Virus record (IMG/VR): IMGVR_UViG_3300000350_000001
Location: 1-27,175 of that record
DNA length: 27,175 bases
Origin: a virus
Strand: one strand, 5' to 3'
Shown here: positions 1,993-17,684 of the stretch, piece after piece
Layout of the letters: each line of letters starts with the position of its first letter
Numbering within the stretch: position 1 is the first letter of the stretch
The notes under the pieces: model-generated
Database searches by the model: none
The model's input: only the letters and a program-made list of their open reading frames with translations
Told to the model about the DNA's origin: nothing
Program-made: the position numbers and the translations under genes

Positions 1993-2053
1993 GGTCTGTA
2001 ATCAGTGGTCTTTGAACAACAGCCGAAAACGGAACATAAAAAGACTGAAAAAT

Positions 2054-2116
2054 CGCCGTTCTCAGCCTGAAAGAAGGAAATTGTTAACAGTATAGTTGTT
2101 AACGGCGAGAACGGCG
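2054..2116. repeat. 10-bp inverted repeat enclosing a paired GTTAAC element (E1)
   Basis: CGCCGTTCTC (2054-2063) is exactly complementary to GAGAACGGCG (2107-2116). Inside lie two GTTAAC palindromes (2083-2088, 2098-2103) separated by AGTATAGTT. The right half matches repeats at 7473-7517 and 15931-15962 (TAACAGTATRnn...TTAACRGCRAGAASG). It may be a protein-binding site, part of an RNA leader or a replication signal; the sequence does not decide. Confidence 0.55.
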
Positions 2117-2127
2117 GTTCCTATATA

Positions 2128-2171
2128 CACCACTAATGGCTCTTTAAAAGATAGAAAATCCATTAATGGTG
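2128..2171. repeat. Imperfect 12-bp inverted repeat
   Basis: CACCACTAATGG (2128-2139) faces CCATTAATGGTG (2160-2171); 11 of 12 positions pair. It is one of several successive hairpins in the 1969-2443 region, which otherwise holds no convincing gene. Confidence 0.45.
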
Positions 2172-2184
2172 TCTTGTGAATGGT

Positions 2185-2203
2185 GGTTCCCGACCAAGGA
2201 ACC
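2185..2203. repeat. Hairpin GGTTCC/GGAACC
   Basis: A 6-bp perfect stem (2185-2190 with 2198-2203) with a 7-nt loop CGACCAA, directly before a copy of the conserved leader motif at 2204-2221. Confidence 0.4.
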
Positions 2204-2221
2204 GACCAAGAACATTCGACC
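2204..2221 (+). promoter_or_regulatory. Leader motif copy, GACCAAGAACATTCGACC
   Basis: An exact copy of the motif found just upstream of several start codons farther right. The next ATG here (2237) opens only a 21-codon frame ending at 2302, within a nested hairpin (GAGAG 2222-2226 with CTCTC 2246-2250; GTTC 2230-2233 with GAAC 2240-2243). This may be a short leader peptide or a relic of a leader that lost its gene. Confidence 0.5.
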
Positions 2222-2264
2222 GAGAGAAGGTTCTTAATGGAACTCCTCTCAACCTTATTACTAC

Positions 2265-2285
2265 ACAAGGGTATATATACCTTGT
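2265..2285. repeat. AT-centred hairpin ACAAGG/CCTTGT
   Basis: A 6-bp stem (2265-2270 with 2280-2285) around GTATATATA. It could be a terminator-like hairpin for one strand or an AT-rich operator. Confidence 0.35.
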
Positions 2286-2346
2286 CGGGGGTTTATAAGT
2301 GACCTCCCCAAAATAGTTCATGTCAATATTAATTATAAGCAAGTTC

Positions 2347-2383
2347 GTGTATAGAATGGGCCAAAATCTGCCAATCTATACAC
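2347..2383. repeat. Perfect 8-bp inverted repeat GTGTATAG/CTATACAC
   Basis: The arms at 2347-2354 and 2376-2383 enclose 21 nt. It lies about 60 nt beyond the 3' end of the HalOD1-like minus-strand gene, so it could act in termination, or as an operator for the plus strand. Confidence 0.4.
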
Positions 2384-2443
2384 AAACATGGATATATCTG
2401 TGGTCAGCTATTTCTCGTGCGCGGTCTGTGGTCAACGTCCGAT

Positions 2444-2725
2444 CTACTCCAATACTTGTAGTTCCATCTTGTCCCGGTAGAACACTGCTCGGTAGTTTTC
2501 TAACCGCAAGGTCATGGATATGAAGCCGTTCTCGATCACATCATTGCACAGTTGCTCCTCAGAGTCTTTTAGCACATCGTTTATTTTAGGCCCGAACACC
2601 TTATCCAGATCGTCAACCTCAACGTCCTCAAACTCTGAAAGTGCCCGGCCCAAAGCCTCACACGGTCGCGTCTCGTTCCAGTCGTGGTCGTAGGTTTTCG
2701 ACTTCACGACATTATATTCAGACAT
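2444..2725 (-). CDS. HalOD1-like output-domain protein
   Basis: 93-residue acidic protein whose pattern resembles the haloarchaeal HalOD1 domain: a TRPCEALGRALSEF helix, then a DLDKVFGPKINDVL segment, then a predicted beta-rich C-terminus (GFISMTLRLENYRAVFYRDK). HalOD1 domains usually stand alone or follow response-regulator receivers in haloarchaea, and their exact role is unclear. I prefer ATG 2725 to the TTG at 2731 because a TATA-like element (minus TTATTATAA, plus 2749-2757) lies about 32 nt upstream and would give a very short leader. The gene has no operon partner. Family call by eye, moderate confidence. Confidence 0.6.
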   Translation of the reverse strand: MSEYNVVKSKTYDHDWNETRPCEALGRALSEFEDVEVDDLDKVFGPKINDVLKDSEEQLCNDVIENGFISMTLRLENYRAVFYRDKMELQVLE

Positions 2726-2748
2726 AACCAAATGACATTACCTGATGC

Positions 2749-2757
2749 TTATAATAA
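2749..2757 (-). promoter_or_regulatory. TATA-like element of the HalOD1-like gene
   Basis: Minus-strand TTATTATAA lies about 32 nt upstream of ATG 2725, suiting a short-leader or leaderless archaeal transcript. Confidence 0.45.
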
Positions 2758-2842
2758 CCCTTTCGACTCGCCAAAATTTGAAAAATTTCTGAGACAGTTA
2801 CCTCCCAAAACGCAAACCTTAACGAATCCTCATGTCACAACC

Positions 2843-2877
2843 GGGGTACCCCGTAGGTGGGTCTTTGGGTACCCACC
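2843..2877. repeat. GGGGTACCCC palindrome plus 7-bp hairpin
   Basis: GGGGTACCCC (2843-2852) is self-complementary. It is followed by GGTGGGT (2856-2862) pairing with ACCCACC (2871-2877) across an 8-nt loop. It lies between the HalOD1-like gene's upstream region and the large structured region, and could be a terminator, an operator or the 5' end of the structured RNA. Confidence 0.45.
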
Positions 2878-3957
2878 AGATTCCATTTCAAGGCCCTTGA
2901 TAAGCCCATACTCGGCCTTTTGATTTTTACGACTGTGTTACTACGTTTTTAGGGGTAAAACGTCGTGTTGAGCTAACTGTGGCGACTGACAGGGTACGAC
3001 CCTTTTTTGCCGGTATTTATTCACTGACTTACGTATTTCAGTAGTTTGTACTAAAGTAGTAAAGTAGACTTGTGTTTGATGTAAGTTTGGTTGTGTTCGG
3101 GATCTCCGAGTTTACCGAGTTACGTAATAAAGTAGTGACGTGCTTAACACAAGTGCGCTTGTATATCCCTCACGCGGGTATAGCACCTAACCGACGTTCT
3201 CGGTTGTTTCCGACCCATAGGCCACACCCACACCAGAGGGTCACACAGGAGCCACACAAGGCCCATACAGCTACCATACAGGGGCCTACGTAGATCTAAC
3301 CCATACACCGCAGTTATCCCCTAATACGCCGGTTATATTTTCAAGGTTAAAGGTGTTGGAAAAAGCCGTAAAGTAACACCTACAACCCTCATACCCACCG
3401 TATAGCCATAGCTCACACACAGGTACCCCACACAAGGGCCATATACAGGGTTAGATATGGGTACCTTAGCCAGTTTACATAACAGTTTACTTTTGTTACT
3501 CAGGGCTTAGGAGGCTTGAGACAGCCAAGAACACCACTTTAGCACCCAAAAACTGAAATCGACAAGTATATATGTACCCCACTCATCTGGTAGAATGTTG
3601 AAGGCAGTCAGGCAGTGCGGTGCCTTCGAAGTAAGCCCCTGTCCGGATGGTTCCGAAGGTGAATTAACACCTTTGAGGGTTGTAACCTCAAATACCAAAC
3701 CCGCCGGGCGTTACTCCCTGATAGGCAGTTGTTGAGGTGGCCTAAGACCCATCGAACGGGTAAACCCGGAAAGCGGTTTTTCGGAACCCGGTGGCTCAGA
3801 AGGGAAAGAGGGAATACCTAACCCGTAATATTTGGGTCGTAGGACGGTCTTACGGCTCGAAATCCTGAAAGGGACTATTCGCTTAATGGTTCGATAGAAT
3901 ATAACGGTCGGAACCCGGCATTGCGGGGGTTAACGGTGTTAGGTGGGTAAAGCGAAT

Positions 3958-3977
3958 TCAAGCCCGAAAGGGCTTGA
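3958..3977 (+). other. GAAA-capped 8-bp hairpin inside the putative large RNA
   Basis: TCAAGCCC-GAAA-GGGCTTGA: a perfect 8-bp stem closed by a GNRA tetraloop. The minus strand would have a TTTC loop, so this favours a functional plus-strand RNA. Confidence 0.7.
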
Positions 3978-4307
3978 GGGACATCTCATACAGGCATACT
4001 TTCAGTCGGTTATGCAATGGTGTGTCAAAGTGCAAAGCGTGAAAGGATTCGGATCTTCTGAATCACAGTCTTACACAAGGTCCAAATACGGATATTTGGC
4101 CCTATGAGTAGGCCAACGGGGTACTGCTCGGATGACTTAAAACCGGTTTCTAATAACCGTGTTACTTCTTAACAAGCGGTAAGACAAAACTGTGAAGTGG
4201 AGCATTGAAGCCTGTGGTACTAATTTGCGGGGTATCAGGGTGAAAAATTTGGCTAACTCCCTGAAAAGGGCCAAAGCATTCGGAAAACCCCTTGTGTTCA
4301 GTAATGA

Positions 4308-4319
4308 GGGATACCCCGG
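4308..4319 (+). repeat. GGGATACCCCGG, copy 1
   Basis: Identical to 4612-4623. In this copy GATACCCC (4310-4317) can pair with GGGGTATC at 4229-4236 (8 bp). In the second copy the same letters form the mini-hairpin of the tRNA-like structure, so the two copies could compete for one partner. Confidence 0.5.
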
Positions 4320-4589
4320 CGAGTAGGTTTAAAGTAGTTAACAACTTCTTGAAAAGTGGTTCCAATGATTGCGTAAAATCCCCATAGGAACCCCAGTATT
4401 GAAGGCTTGAATGAAACAAACTGAAACCCGAACGGTGGGTATAGACATCGACGTTTACGGCCTAACTGGTAACAGCGAAAACACGGTTTCAACGAATACT
4501 GTGGACTTGAATAAGAGGTTTAGGATACCGACCCTAAGCCCATAACAACCCACAGGAAAACACAAGATCCGGGGGTAATAACTCGGATA

Positions 4590-4647
4590 GGATAGTCTTT
4601 AGTTGGTAAGCGGGATACCCCGGTAAGTTCGAACCTTACACTATTCT
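4590..4647 (+). ncRNA. tRNA-like structure TLS0 with reduced anticodon arm
   Basis: 7-bp acceptor GGATAGT (4590-4596) with ACTATTC (4640-4646; one G-U pair); 3-bp D-like stem CTT (4597-4599) with AAG (4608-4610) around TAGTTGGT, a D-loop-like sequence; mini-hairpin CGGG-ATAC-CCCG (4611-4622) where the anticodon arm would be; then a canonical T-arm, GTAAG-TTCGAAC-CTTAC (4623-4639). The T-loop fits TTCRANY. There is no 7-nt anticodon loop, so it cannot decode. No CCA is encoded, as is normal in haloarchaea. It ends the large structured region and lies 49 nt before ATG 4696. Probable substrate for tRNase Z and/or RNase P. Confidence 0.75.
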
Positions 4648-4677
4648 TTGCGGTGTGGTATAGGGCGGTAAATAAAC

Positions 4678-4695
4678 GACCAAGAACTAAGACCT
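4678..4695 (+). promoter_or_regulatory. Degenerate leader motif before the 336-aa gene
   Basis: GACCAAGAACTAAGACCT ends immediately before ATG 4696. It matches the first ten bases of the consensus GACCAAGAACATTCGACC and then diverges. Confidence 0.45.
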
Positions 4696-5706
4696 ATGCT
4701 AAGTTTTGACATAGACACAGACGACAGTACAAACACGGAAAACAATGCGGAAACCCGGAAAGAAGGTGTGGATTTCATAGAATACAACGGTGTTGAATAT
4801 GAAAATTTCATCGAATGCAGTGACGGCGAAAAGGTTCCAAAAATCGACGACCGAATGGAATCAGCGGAAAAATACCGGTTGGCTGTCGTCCTGAATTACA
4901 AATTAGGTCCGGAAATCGGAAATTCCGAATTCACATCGAAAGCCTACAAAAAGGGATCTGACGCATTTCCAAATGAGGCTATAGGCCAATTTGAAGGCAT
5001 GGAAAACCACGAGGACATTTCACTGGAAAAGGCATTCTCGAAAGGCCATTACTACTACAGAGAAATGGGTAATGGAAAAATCAAATCGGTGATGAAAGAC
5101 GCATTCCATGCTGAATGTGAAAAGCTCGGAGTTCCTAAGAATCTCGAAGTCTACAAGCGGAATTTCCCGGTTGCTCAAAACTGGATTACCGGCGATGATA
5201 TGGTAACAATTGAGGAAAACGACGAAAAACCGTGGGAAAACATTCAGATTCCACAGGAATGGGTGAATGAATACGGTGGATTGCCACAAGTTGTCATGGA
5301 TGAATCGGAATTGGAATCGGAACCCGAACCAGAAACCACGAATTCCGGTGCAAAACTGAATGTCCCTGACGAATTCGAAGACGAATACAAGAATACGACC
5401 AAAGACCGCGATAAAATGCGAATTCTGCTCAAATGCAACCCGGAATTCGCCAAGCTGGAAAAGAAAGACAAAGTGGAAATCTTCACCTCGGCACCATTCG
5501 AATTCGGTCAGTCGAATGTCTACGGTGTTCTGAAAGAATGGAATGAGGAAAAAGAGGAATCGGAATCCGAACCAGAACCCGAACCAGAACCGGAAACAAC
5601 CGAGAATGGCGATTCTGATACCGTCGAGATCGACGCTGGTGAATTGGCCGATCTCCGAATGAAGGCACAGAAATACGACGAGATTCAGGCGGCACTCAAC
5701 TTCTAA
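4696..5706 (+). CDS. Acidic protein of unknown function with EPEPE linkers
   Basis: 336 residues, first gene of the plus-strand array. Seen: a hydrophilic N-terminus, a central folded-looking region (about 60-200), an acidic linker with ESELESEPEPE (about 203-213), a compact segment (about 220-285), a second Glu-Pro-rich linker (about 287-303) and a C-terminal helical segment. Codons strongly favour GAA and AAT and many codons end in AATTC, like the following small genes. The ATG follows TLS0 by 49 nt and is preceded by a degenerate leader motif. I do not recognise a domain. Its position and size would suit an abundant nucleic-acid-binding or structural accessory protein, but that is a guess. 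Confidence 0.75.
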   Translation: MLSFDIDTDDSTNTENNAETRKEGVDFIEYNGVEYENFIECSDGEKVPKIDDRMESAEKYRLAVVLNYKLGPEIGNSEFTSKAYKKGSDAFPNEAIGQFEGMENHEDISLEKAFSKGHYYYREMGNGKIKSVMKDAFHAECEKLGVPKNLEVYKRNFPVAQNWITGDDMVTIEENDEKPWENIQIPQEWVNEYGGLPQVVMDESELESEPEPETTNSGAKLNVPDEFEDEYKNTTKDRDKMRILLKCNPEFAKLEKKDKVEIFTSAPFEFGQSNVYGVLKEWNEEKEESESEPEPEPEPETTENGDSDTVEIDAGELADLRMKAQKYDEIQAALNF

Positions 5707-5898: not shown

Positions 5899-5937
5899 GA
5901 CTGAATGGGCGGCTCGCGGTTCGATTCCGCGACAGTC
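5899..5937 (+). ncRNA. Minimal tRNA-like element TLS1
   Basis: Acceptor-like stem GACTG (5899-5903) with CAGTC (5933-5937); linker AATGGGCGGCT; T-stem CGCGG (5915-5919) with CCGCG (5927-5931); T-loop TTCGATT. D and anticodon arms are absent, but the linker keeps GG that could contact the T-loop as in a tRNA elbow. It lies between genes ending at 5867 and starting at 5998. A second hairpin, ATTCCAA/TTGGAAT, follows at about 5952-5972. Confidence 0.75.
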
Positions 5938-5979
5938 AATTTGTATAGCTCAATTCCAATTAGATTTGGAATCCGAACC

Positions 5980-7383: not shown

Positions 7384-7424
7384 GGACTGATTGGTATAAT
7401 TGGAGTTCGATTCTCCAACAGTCC
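7384..7424 (+). ncRNA. Minimal tRNA-like element TLS2
   Basis: Acceptor-like stem GGACTG (7384-7389) with CAGTCC (7419-7424), with an A-A mismatch at the position of pair 7; linker TTGGTATAAT, which resembles a D-loop; T-stem TGGAG (7401-7405) with CTCCA (7413-7417); T-loop TTCGATT. It starts 18 nt after the preceding stop. It is followed by a perfect 8-bp hairpin TTCACAAC/GTTGTGAA (7426-7433 with 7441-7448). Confidence 0.8.
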
Positions 7425-9220: not shown

Positions 9221-9243
9221 CAATCTTCATTTCTAATGCGGTT

Positions 9244-9282
9244 CCCCGATTGGTATAACTCTGGTTCGATTCCAGATCGGGG
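9244..9282 (+). ncRNA. Minimal tRNA-like element TLS3
   Basis: Stem CCCCGA (9244-9249) with TCGGGG (9277-9282); linker TTGGTATAAC, identical to TLS2 in nine of ten bases; T-stem TCTGG (9260-9264) with CCAGA (9272-9276); T-loop TTCGATT. Here the two stems stack without any intervening base. It lies 48 nt before ATG 9331. Stem sequences differ from TLS2 while loop and linker are kept, as expected if the RNA fold is selected. Confidence 0.82.
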
Positions 9283-9306
9283 TCTTCGGTGTGGAATAGC
9301 GAGATT

Positions 9307-17642: not shown

Positions 17643-17684
17643 GCACCCAATGGTGGTCAGGGAGGTTCGATTCCTTCCGGGTGC
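17643..17684 (+). ncRNA. Minimal tRNA-like element TLS5
   Basis: Stem GCACCC (17643-17648) with GGGTGC (17679-17684), with an A-C mismatch at pair 7; linker ATGGTGGTCAG; T-stem GGAGG (17661-17665) with CCTTC (17673-17677), one G-U; T-loop TTCGATT. Same architecture as TLS1-4. It lies 105 nt before ATG 17790 and downstream of a real tRNA on the same transcript. Confidence 0.8.

Follow-up and report, generated by a model that had tools for sequence, protein, structure and literature searches.

The question raised by this locus is what a viral genome keeps in a stretch of more than 1 kb, located between the packaging genes and a small-gene array, in which no plausible gene can be recognised. The window, i.e., the whole stretch of DNA that was analysed (27,175 nt), is a 27-kb viral contig, whose TerL, TerS, and primase put the virus near Hafunaviridae. 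Its TerL is 55% identical to that of HRTV-25 (Halorubrum tailed virus 25) and 44-45% identical to those of the HF1/HF2 group, and its primase shares 41% identity with that of HRTV-25. On these protein similarities, this salt-lake archaeal virus is a distant Hafunaviridae relative. Scans of IMG/VR with TerL, P0001, and the metallophosphatase as single proteins gave a single match, a fragment with 97% identical TerL from sample 3300000350 (L002/L052), which stops short of the locus in question; contig L051 (TerL 76%) likewise ends before it. P0001 (4696-5706, plus strand), with which the small-gene array begins, is an open frame for an acidic protein of 336 aa, for which no significant match was found in Pfam or PHROGs.

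The sequence-only reading proposed a structured non-coding region of about 1.7 kb at 2943-4647, with more short-loop stems than expected by chance. The excess of stems is confirmed. Counting stems of at least 7 bp with loops of 3-8 nt, G-U pairs allowed and overlapping registers included in real and shuffled sequence alike, we found 33 in this region vs. 12.4 in dinucleotide shuffles, and none of 300 shuffles reached 33. The proposed extent, however, is too long. The part at 3590-4690 contains 23 such stems vs. 8.3 in shuffles (P 0.003) and just 11 on the reverse strand, whereas at 2943-3589 the excess is weaker (10 vs. 4.2, P 0.03) and is surpassed on the reverse strand (20 stems), and the local folding z is about 0; the region 2943-3560 is without an RNA signature. 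The RNA is likely of about 1.06 kb, spanning approximately 3592-4650 of the plus strand, from a TATA-like box, whose spacing gives the putative 5' end, to a tRNA-like element just before the gene at 4696, which gives the putative 3' end. Folding energy alone is a weak guide to RNA here, and in this respect the RNA region is only mildly unusual: z of 3590-4690 is -2.25 on the plus strand and -0.46 on the minus strand, and the unrelated region 2001-3100 reaches -3.09.

The absence of a plausible gene, also noted from the sequence, holds for the shortened region as well, since the longest stop-free runs in 3592-4650 comprise 54 codons on the plus strand and 99 codons on the minus strand. A protein-coding region missed due to frameshifts, splicing, or the tiny size of its ORFs might be suspected from GenBank records of relatives, in which small CDSs overlap the corresponding region (HRTV-25_gp108-112, HRTV-24_gp131-134, and HRTV-11_gp105-108). 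Against this, no frame of the window stays open for long here, most indels in the relatives of HF2 type are not multiples of three (132/163), and the small ORFs show no conservation among the relatives and lie on different strands. A coding function is thus scarcely credible, and these annotated CDSs are probably spurious, which means that in halovirus genomes the RNA stretch is annotated with doubtful small ORFs.

The predicted RNA can be described part by part. The TATA-box-like element TATATATG, a putative promoter, lies at 3567-3574 (plus strand, as all features below). It is followed at 3598-3629 by a 5' hairpin UUGAAGGCA/UGCCUUCGA (pair probability 0.93), which carries the start motif UGUUGAAGG, and at 3631-3640 by the motif GUAAGCCCCU. 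Further downstream, a 14-bp hairpin with G-U pairs is predicted at 3831-3861 (pair probability 0.94). The three hairpins named in the sequence-only reading are all present as described, with pair probabilities between 0.88 and 1.00: the 8-bp hairpin with a GAAA loop at 3958-3977 (0.99), the 7-bp hairpin with a CGGA loop at 4082-4099 (0.92), and the nested hairpins at 4499-4555, the outer CUGUGG/CCACAG (0.88) and the inner GGUUUAGG/CCUAAGCC (1.00). Between them, at 4203-4413, a single-sequence fold predicts a closed domain with the long helices AAGCCU/AGGCUU, GGGGUAUC/GAUACCCC, and GGUUCC/GGAACC (pair probabilities of 0.97-0.99).

No Rfam family accounts for this RNA. A search of Rfam 15, one of the checks proposed with the sequence-only reading, gave nothing for the window RNA at the gathering threshold and a single chance match at a permissive cut-off; no covariance model, whether of GOLLD, ROOL, OLE, or any other Rfam family, matched it above the gathering score. 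For nine loci with related RNAs, Rfam returned only Hammerhead_II, apart from the tRNA in the window. The window RNA had no BLASTn match in phage and plasmid records, and no alignable close relative was found there or in IMG/VR. A scan of IMG/VR with the pattern CCGGCRTTGCGGGGGNTTNA returned contig L049 and two coding contigs, which we rejected as chance matches; a scan by alignment of P0001 with its L049 counterpart returned L049 again and nothing else. L049 is the sole, distant relative of the window RNA found. It also encodes, downstream of its RNA, a relative of P0001 (34%, tblastn E 3e-15).

The window RNA lies on the strand of the early array, flanked by the TerS side and by the array's first gene. 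A stretch of 0.7-1.7 kb without a plausible gene occupies this position in viruses of four isolate genera, in metagenomic contigs, and in proviruses of haloarchaea and Actinarchaeum. In HF2, HRTV-5, HRTV-24, HSTV-2, HRTV-25, and HRTV-27, about 0.7-1.5 kb without a plausible gene was found at this locus, and the stretches of the isolate viruses begin at a TATA-like box and extend to the first early gene or to its vicinity. In HF2, the RNA spans roughly 0.55-1.97 kb. Among the metagenomic contigs, retrieved in searches with TerS and TerL alignments, three are readable across the locus (L027, L049, and L054) and are ORF-poor there, as are the proviruses L030, L127, L129, L142, L143, L144, and L150. 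A genome scan revealed the proviruses of Natronorubrum sulfidifaciens (identical in sequence to L030), Halospeciosus flavus (L127), and Actinarchaeum halophilum (L129); TerS was present in 11 of the 391 genomes of the class that were surveyed, and further proviruses with a recognisable RNA locus are L142 (HF2/HRTV-24-type), L143 and L144 (HRTV-25-type), and L150. In the relatives L032, L034, and L051, which have other genes inserted beside TerS, no RNA locus was located.

In these relatives, the covariation analysis proposed with the sequence-only reading could be carried out, and it was strongly positive for two types of RNA at the same locus. The consensus fold of the HF2-type alignment (16 copies, representing few lineages) has 430 pairs, with 93% of cells paired and 136 pairs changed on both sides, compared with a mean of 47 (maximum 56) such pairs in 24 column-shuffled and refolded alignments; its energy is -829 vs. 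a shuffle mean of -569 (z -32). When partners were slid by 1-3 columns, 25-45 double-change pairs remained. Helix 738-746/1274-1282 of HF2 covaries as CUUCAAACG/CGUUUGAAG, CUUACGACG/CGUCGUAAG, or CCUACGACG/CGUCGUAGG, helix 759-767/1086-1094, whose partners lie hundreds of nucleotides apart, occurs in four forms, and helices 1197-1204/1242-1249 and 1188-1195/1258-1265 covary likewise. In the case of the HRTV-25 type (n=4), 84 double-change pairs were found vs. 36 (maximum 51) in shuffles (energy z -24), and in the case of the HSTV-2 type (n=2), 19 vs. 4. The L030/L027 pair is too diverged for covariation (84 pairs vs. 76 in shuffles). These column shuffles ignore phylogeny and recombination, and these viruses do recombine. 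The structure of the HF2-type and HRTV-25-type RNAs is real and is kept by compensatory change.

Covariation could also be a property of DNA, for instance of inverted repeats near the genome ends that serve packaging, replication, or the cutting of concatemers. The linear genomes of hafunaviruses have their ends between TerS and the small-gene array, which runs in the opposite direction, and it is there that the HF2 record has an annotated 306-bp terminal repeat with a putative nick site beside it, and the reverse strand of the relatives folds almost as well as the forward one, with similar energies. The helices, however, are nested, with partners hundreds of nucleotides apart in one defined order, the structure extends from the TATA box to the gene start and contains hairpins with GNRA and UUCG loops, and the terminal repeat lies outside it. 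Moreover, cells with G-U outnumber those with A-C (88:67 in the HF2 type and 17:8 in the HRTV-25 type), which mildly favours the plus strand, and the promoter and the gene order agree with this. We consider an element acting at the DNA level most improbable.

The link between these RNAs and that of the window involves short motifs. The segment TATATATGTACCCC..CATCTGGTAGAATGTTGAAGG of the window resembles HF2-type viruses at the same place (about 74% over 42 nt), with E of 0.07-0.6 as computed against the fetched loci only. It also resembles L049, which reads TATATGTACCCCGTGCATTTGTAGTAATGTGAAGG there, and TATATATG(TACC) of the window is followed by ..TGTTGAAGG, as in L049. The start motif, CGAUGAARG in the relatives, is located 30-72 nt into the extracted RNA region in the window, HRTV-25, L127, L129, L143, L144, L150, and HRTV-27. 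At the DNA level, CGATGAARG is common to HRTV-25, L127, L143, L144, and L150, and the L129 variant is CTGATGAAGG. A TATA box with (C/T)(G/T)(A/T)TGAARG about 20-30 nt later is present in the window, this generalised motif having been derived with the window included. The 9-mer GTAAGCCCC from the region of 3631-3640 is common to the RNAs of the window, L049, L030, and HRTV-25, and the 13-mer CGAAGTAAGCCCC to those of the window and HRTV-25. Across all RNAs, 9-mers common to three or four groups exceed shuffles; 9-mers that the window shares with each other RNA do not rise above the maximum of 50 shuffles, which HRTV-25 equals. A covariance model of one HRTV-25-type domain (GCCCCCUU...GAGACCG...AAGGG) matches L127, L144, and L054, and weakly, at the syntenic spot and with all core stems formed, the Actinarchaeum provirus L129 (E 0.04); it has no match in the window. 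The supposed new large RNA has no match in Rfam and is one among several RNAs of dissimilar sequence that share a conserved position. Judged by position and style, the window RNA belongs to the class found at this locus, a membership that does not imply homology to the RNAs of HF2 type or HRTV-25 type.

Since no close relative is available for covariation, the case for structure in the window rests on synteny, the promoter and 5' motif, the lack of ORFs, the hairpin excess, and the tRNA-like end. For the same reason it might be supposed that only the relatives have a functional RNA and that the window carries a decayed or ordinary spacer, to which the energy z of only -2.25 and the failure of the HRTV-25-type domain model would also conform. 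A spacer would hardly be expected to show an excess of hairpins on one strand, an intact promoter and 5' motif, and an acceptor stem with a T-arm at the right place, and 1.1 kb of non-functional DNA is unusual for a compact viral genome; this explanation appears very improbable.

The tRNA-like element, identified by a pattern scan at 4590-4646 just before the first array gene, comprises a 7-bp acceptor stem GGATAGT/ACTATTC, a T-arm GTAAG-TTCGAAC-CTTAC, and a D-loop-like TTAGTTGGTAAG, and has no anticodon arm. A strict pattern scan of the window gave five matches on the plus strand, one of them being the real tRNA-Met, and none on the minus strand, with 0.02 per strand in shuffles; the remaining four (4590-4646, 7384-7424, 9243-9283, and 17643-17684) are intergenic and combine an acceptor stem with a T-arm (TTCRANY loop) without an anticodon arm. 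RNase P and tRNase Z would cleave such elements on both sides, as in the case of MALAT1/mascRNA. By analogy, we propose that the element at 4590-4646 is a processing site of these enzymes that forms the 3' end of the RNA. An element immediately precedes the first gene in the window, L027, and HRTV-27. The nearest one follows the first gene in HRTV-25, the second gene in L127 and L129, an ORF of 101 aa in L049, and the first or second ORF in HF2, and therefore the RNA would not in general be released directly ahead of the first ORF.

These observations bear on the main rival of a free RNA, namely, a giant structured 5' leader that stays on the first early mRNA and acts in cis on its stability or translation. 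The first gene follows the promoter and the RNA collinearly, and apart from TAAATA at 4669 nothing in between resembles a second promoter. The last conserved stretch of HF2-type RNAs, GTGACACCCAACGAACTATG, leads directly into the start codon, and pairing within the RNA is predicted for its GUGACAC. The first genes of HRTV-25-type viruses, L150, and L129 are homologous, and thus the RNA and the gene travel together; in the HF1/HF2 group, one hammerhead ribozyme is also placed just upstream of a gene, that of the helicase (PMC3088659). Yet the putative cleavage site separates the RNA from the ORF in the window, L027, and HRTV-27, and a length of >1 kb far exceeds that of known cis-regulatory leaders. 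In addition, no homology is detectable between the first gene of the window and those of HRTV-25-type viruses: P0001 had no profile match to the latter, and no homology of first genes was found between window/L049 and the HRTV-25 type, because of which we do not claim a conserved pair of RNA and partner protein across the family. A leader acting in cis is a serious alternative, which we nevertheless consider unlikely.

The explanation that we favour, with a probability of about 60%, is a single immediate-early folded RNA of about 1.06 kb, which is freed at the tRNA-like element and acts in trans in the manner of GOLLD and ROOL. The ORF-free stretch with its hairpin excess, the syntenic position shared with the covarying RNAs of relatives, and the tRNA-like element argue for an RNA. 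Host RNA polymerase would transcribe 3592-4650 immediate-early from the TATA box at 3567, the RNA would fold into a multi-domain structure, and host RNase P and tRNase Z would cut the element at 4590-4646 and thereby detach the RNA from the small-gene operon mRNA. By analogy to GOLLD and ROOL, the free RNA might then be trans-acting, forming an RNA-based scaffold or assembly inside the infected cell. The first 5 kb of HF2 are immediate-early, with transcription at 0-1 h after infection (PMC7230728); they include the HF2 RNA. The immediate-early position points to a role during the first hour after infection. The sequence-only reading was largely right: a large plus-strand RNA of a haloarchaeal virus between the packaging genes and the small-gene array is supported, with its extent corrected to about 1.06 kb and a TATA start and tRNA-like end added. 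Whether the scheme extends to a whole class, i.e., fast-evolving immediate-early RNAs of 0.7-1.7 kb throughout one family of archaeal tailed viruses with haloarchaea and Actinarchaeum as hosts, with position and fold type kept and sequence turned over almost completely, released at tRNA-like elements and acting as trans-acting machines in host takeover, is a more tentative matter, to which we give somewhat less than an even chance.

Among known systems, GOLLD and ROOL are the closest in kind. To our knowledge, no function is known for large ornate RNAs of the GOLLD/ROOL type from bacteria and phages. They are encoded by phages and prophages, and cryo-EM has shown them to form nanocages (PMC12286853). 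Like them, the halovirus RNAs are encoded by viruses, have a large size (0.6-0.9 kb or more) and a high content of structure, and are recognised by covariation in relatives, and GOLLD also has a variable part and a possible linkage to tRNAs. In contrast to them, the halovirus RNAs have no Rfam match, are located at the immediate-early end of archaeal tailed viruses, include several sequence-dissimilar RNAs at one locus, and are associated with a tRNA-like 3' element without an anticodon arm. At most, the halovirus RNA may work like GOLLD or ROOL; it is a member of neither. MALAT1/mascRNA and plant mitochondrial t-elements are cases of tRNA-like punctuation, in which a long non-coding RNA is bordered on its 3' side by a tRNA-like fold without a decoding role; the present case differs from these in that it concerns an archaeal virus, processing is putative, and not every relative has an element directly at the RNA end. 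Bacterial OLE RNA is similar as a large RNA adjoining a conserved protein gene, in its case that of its partner protein (PMC12286853 and general knowledge), but it is cellular and shows no sequence relation, and we do not claim RNA binding by the neighbouring protein here. In the HF1/HF2 group, a hammerhead ribozyme and tRNA-like sequences have already been reported (PMC3088659, PMC7230728), and those tRNA-like sequences, coming from the same virus group, may overlap with the elements described here. In the searched papers on the HF1/HF2 group and other archaeal tailed viruses, among which the first genome paper of HF2 and one of 2004 on HF1/HF2 were not included, we found no description of a large RNA in the first 2 kb. 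The large viral RNA gene is new to catalogues of RNA families, the general kind of large ornate viral RNA being known, and the cultivated archaeal viruses of this group (HF1, HF2, and HRTV-25) offer a system for asking directly about the part that such an RNA plays during infection.

Several further features of these loci deserve mention. The miniature tRNA-like elements in the small-gene array of the window (7384-7424, 9243-9283, and 17643-17684) consist of an acceptor stem, a TTGGTATAAT-like linker, and a T-arm, and a weaker one lies near 5908-5942. Elements of the same type occur in HRTV-25, HF2, L127, L129, L049, L054, and L065, and ARAGORN reports none of them. They possibly serve as transcript-cutting punctuation, in which case haloviruses may cut polycistronic transcripts by means of tRNA-like elements. 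Downstream of the RNA, on the array strand (minus in the three sequences named here), type II hammerhead ribozymes (Rfam RF02276) were found, up to three per provirus: at 1131-1199 in L127, at 4534-4599, 4906-4970, and 3021-3087 in L129, and at 3242-3308 and 2285-2355 in the contig L054. The acidic first gene after the RNA is homologous in L127 (6178-6756), L054 (5317-5904), L144 (3725-4339), L150 (3783-4406), L129 (6505-7203), and HRTV-25 (gp107); the C-terminus of its product has a helix-hairpin-helix-like motif, GIGDATAxEALEALKEAG, and the product is possibly a nucleic-acid binder.

On the other side of the RNA, the imperfect direct repeats CACACAGG..CCACACAAGGCCCATACA at 3242-3270 and 3416-3446 of the window sit where the genome ends of relatives lie and could be part of terminal repeats or of a packaging site. 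A promoter-like element, GTCGGGGGTTTATAAGTGACCTCC, is located upstream of TerS at about 2250-2315 and is near-identical in HRTV-25, L027, L127, and L129. In L051 (1-2972), as well as upstream of TerS in L032 and L034, long tail- or adhesin-like genes are inserted beside the terminase genes, one of them encoding a beta-propeller-like protein and one a Ser/Ala/Val-rich repeat protein.
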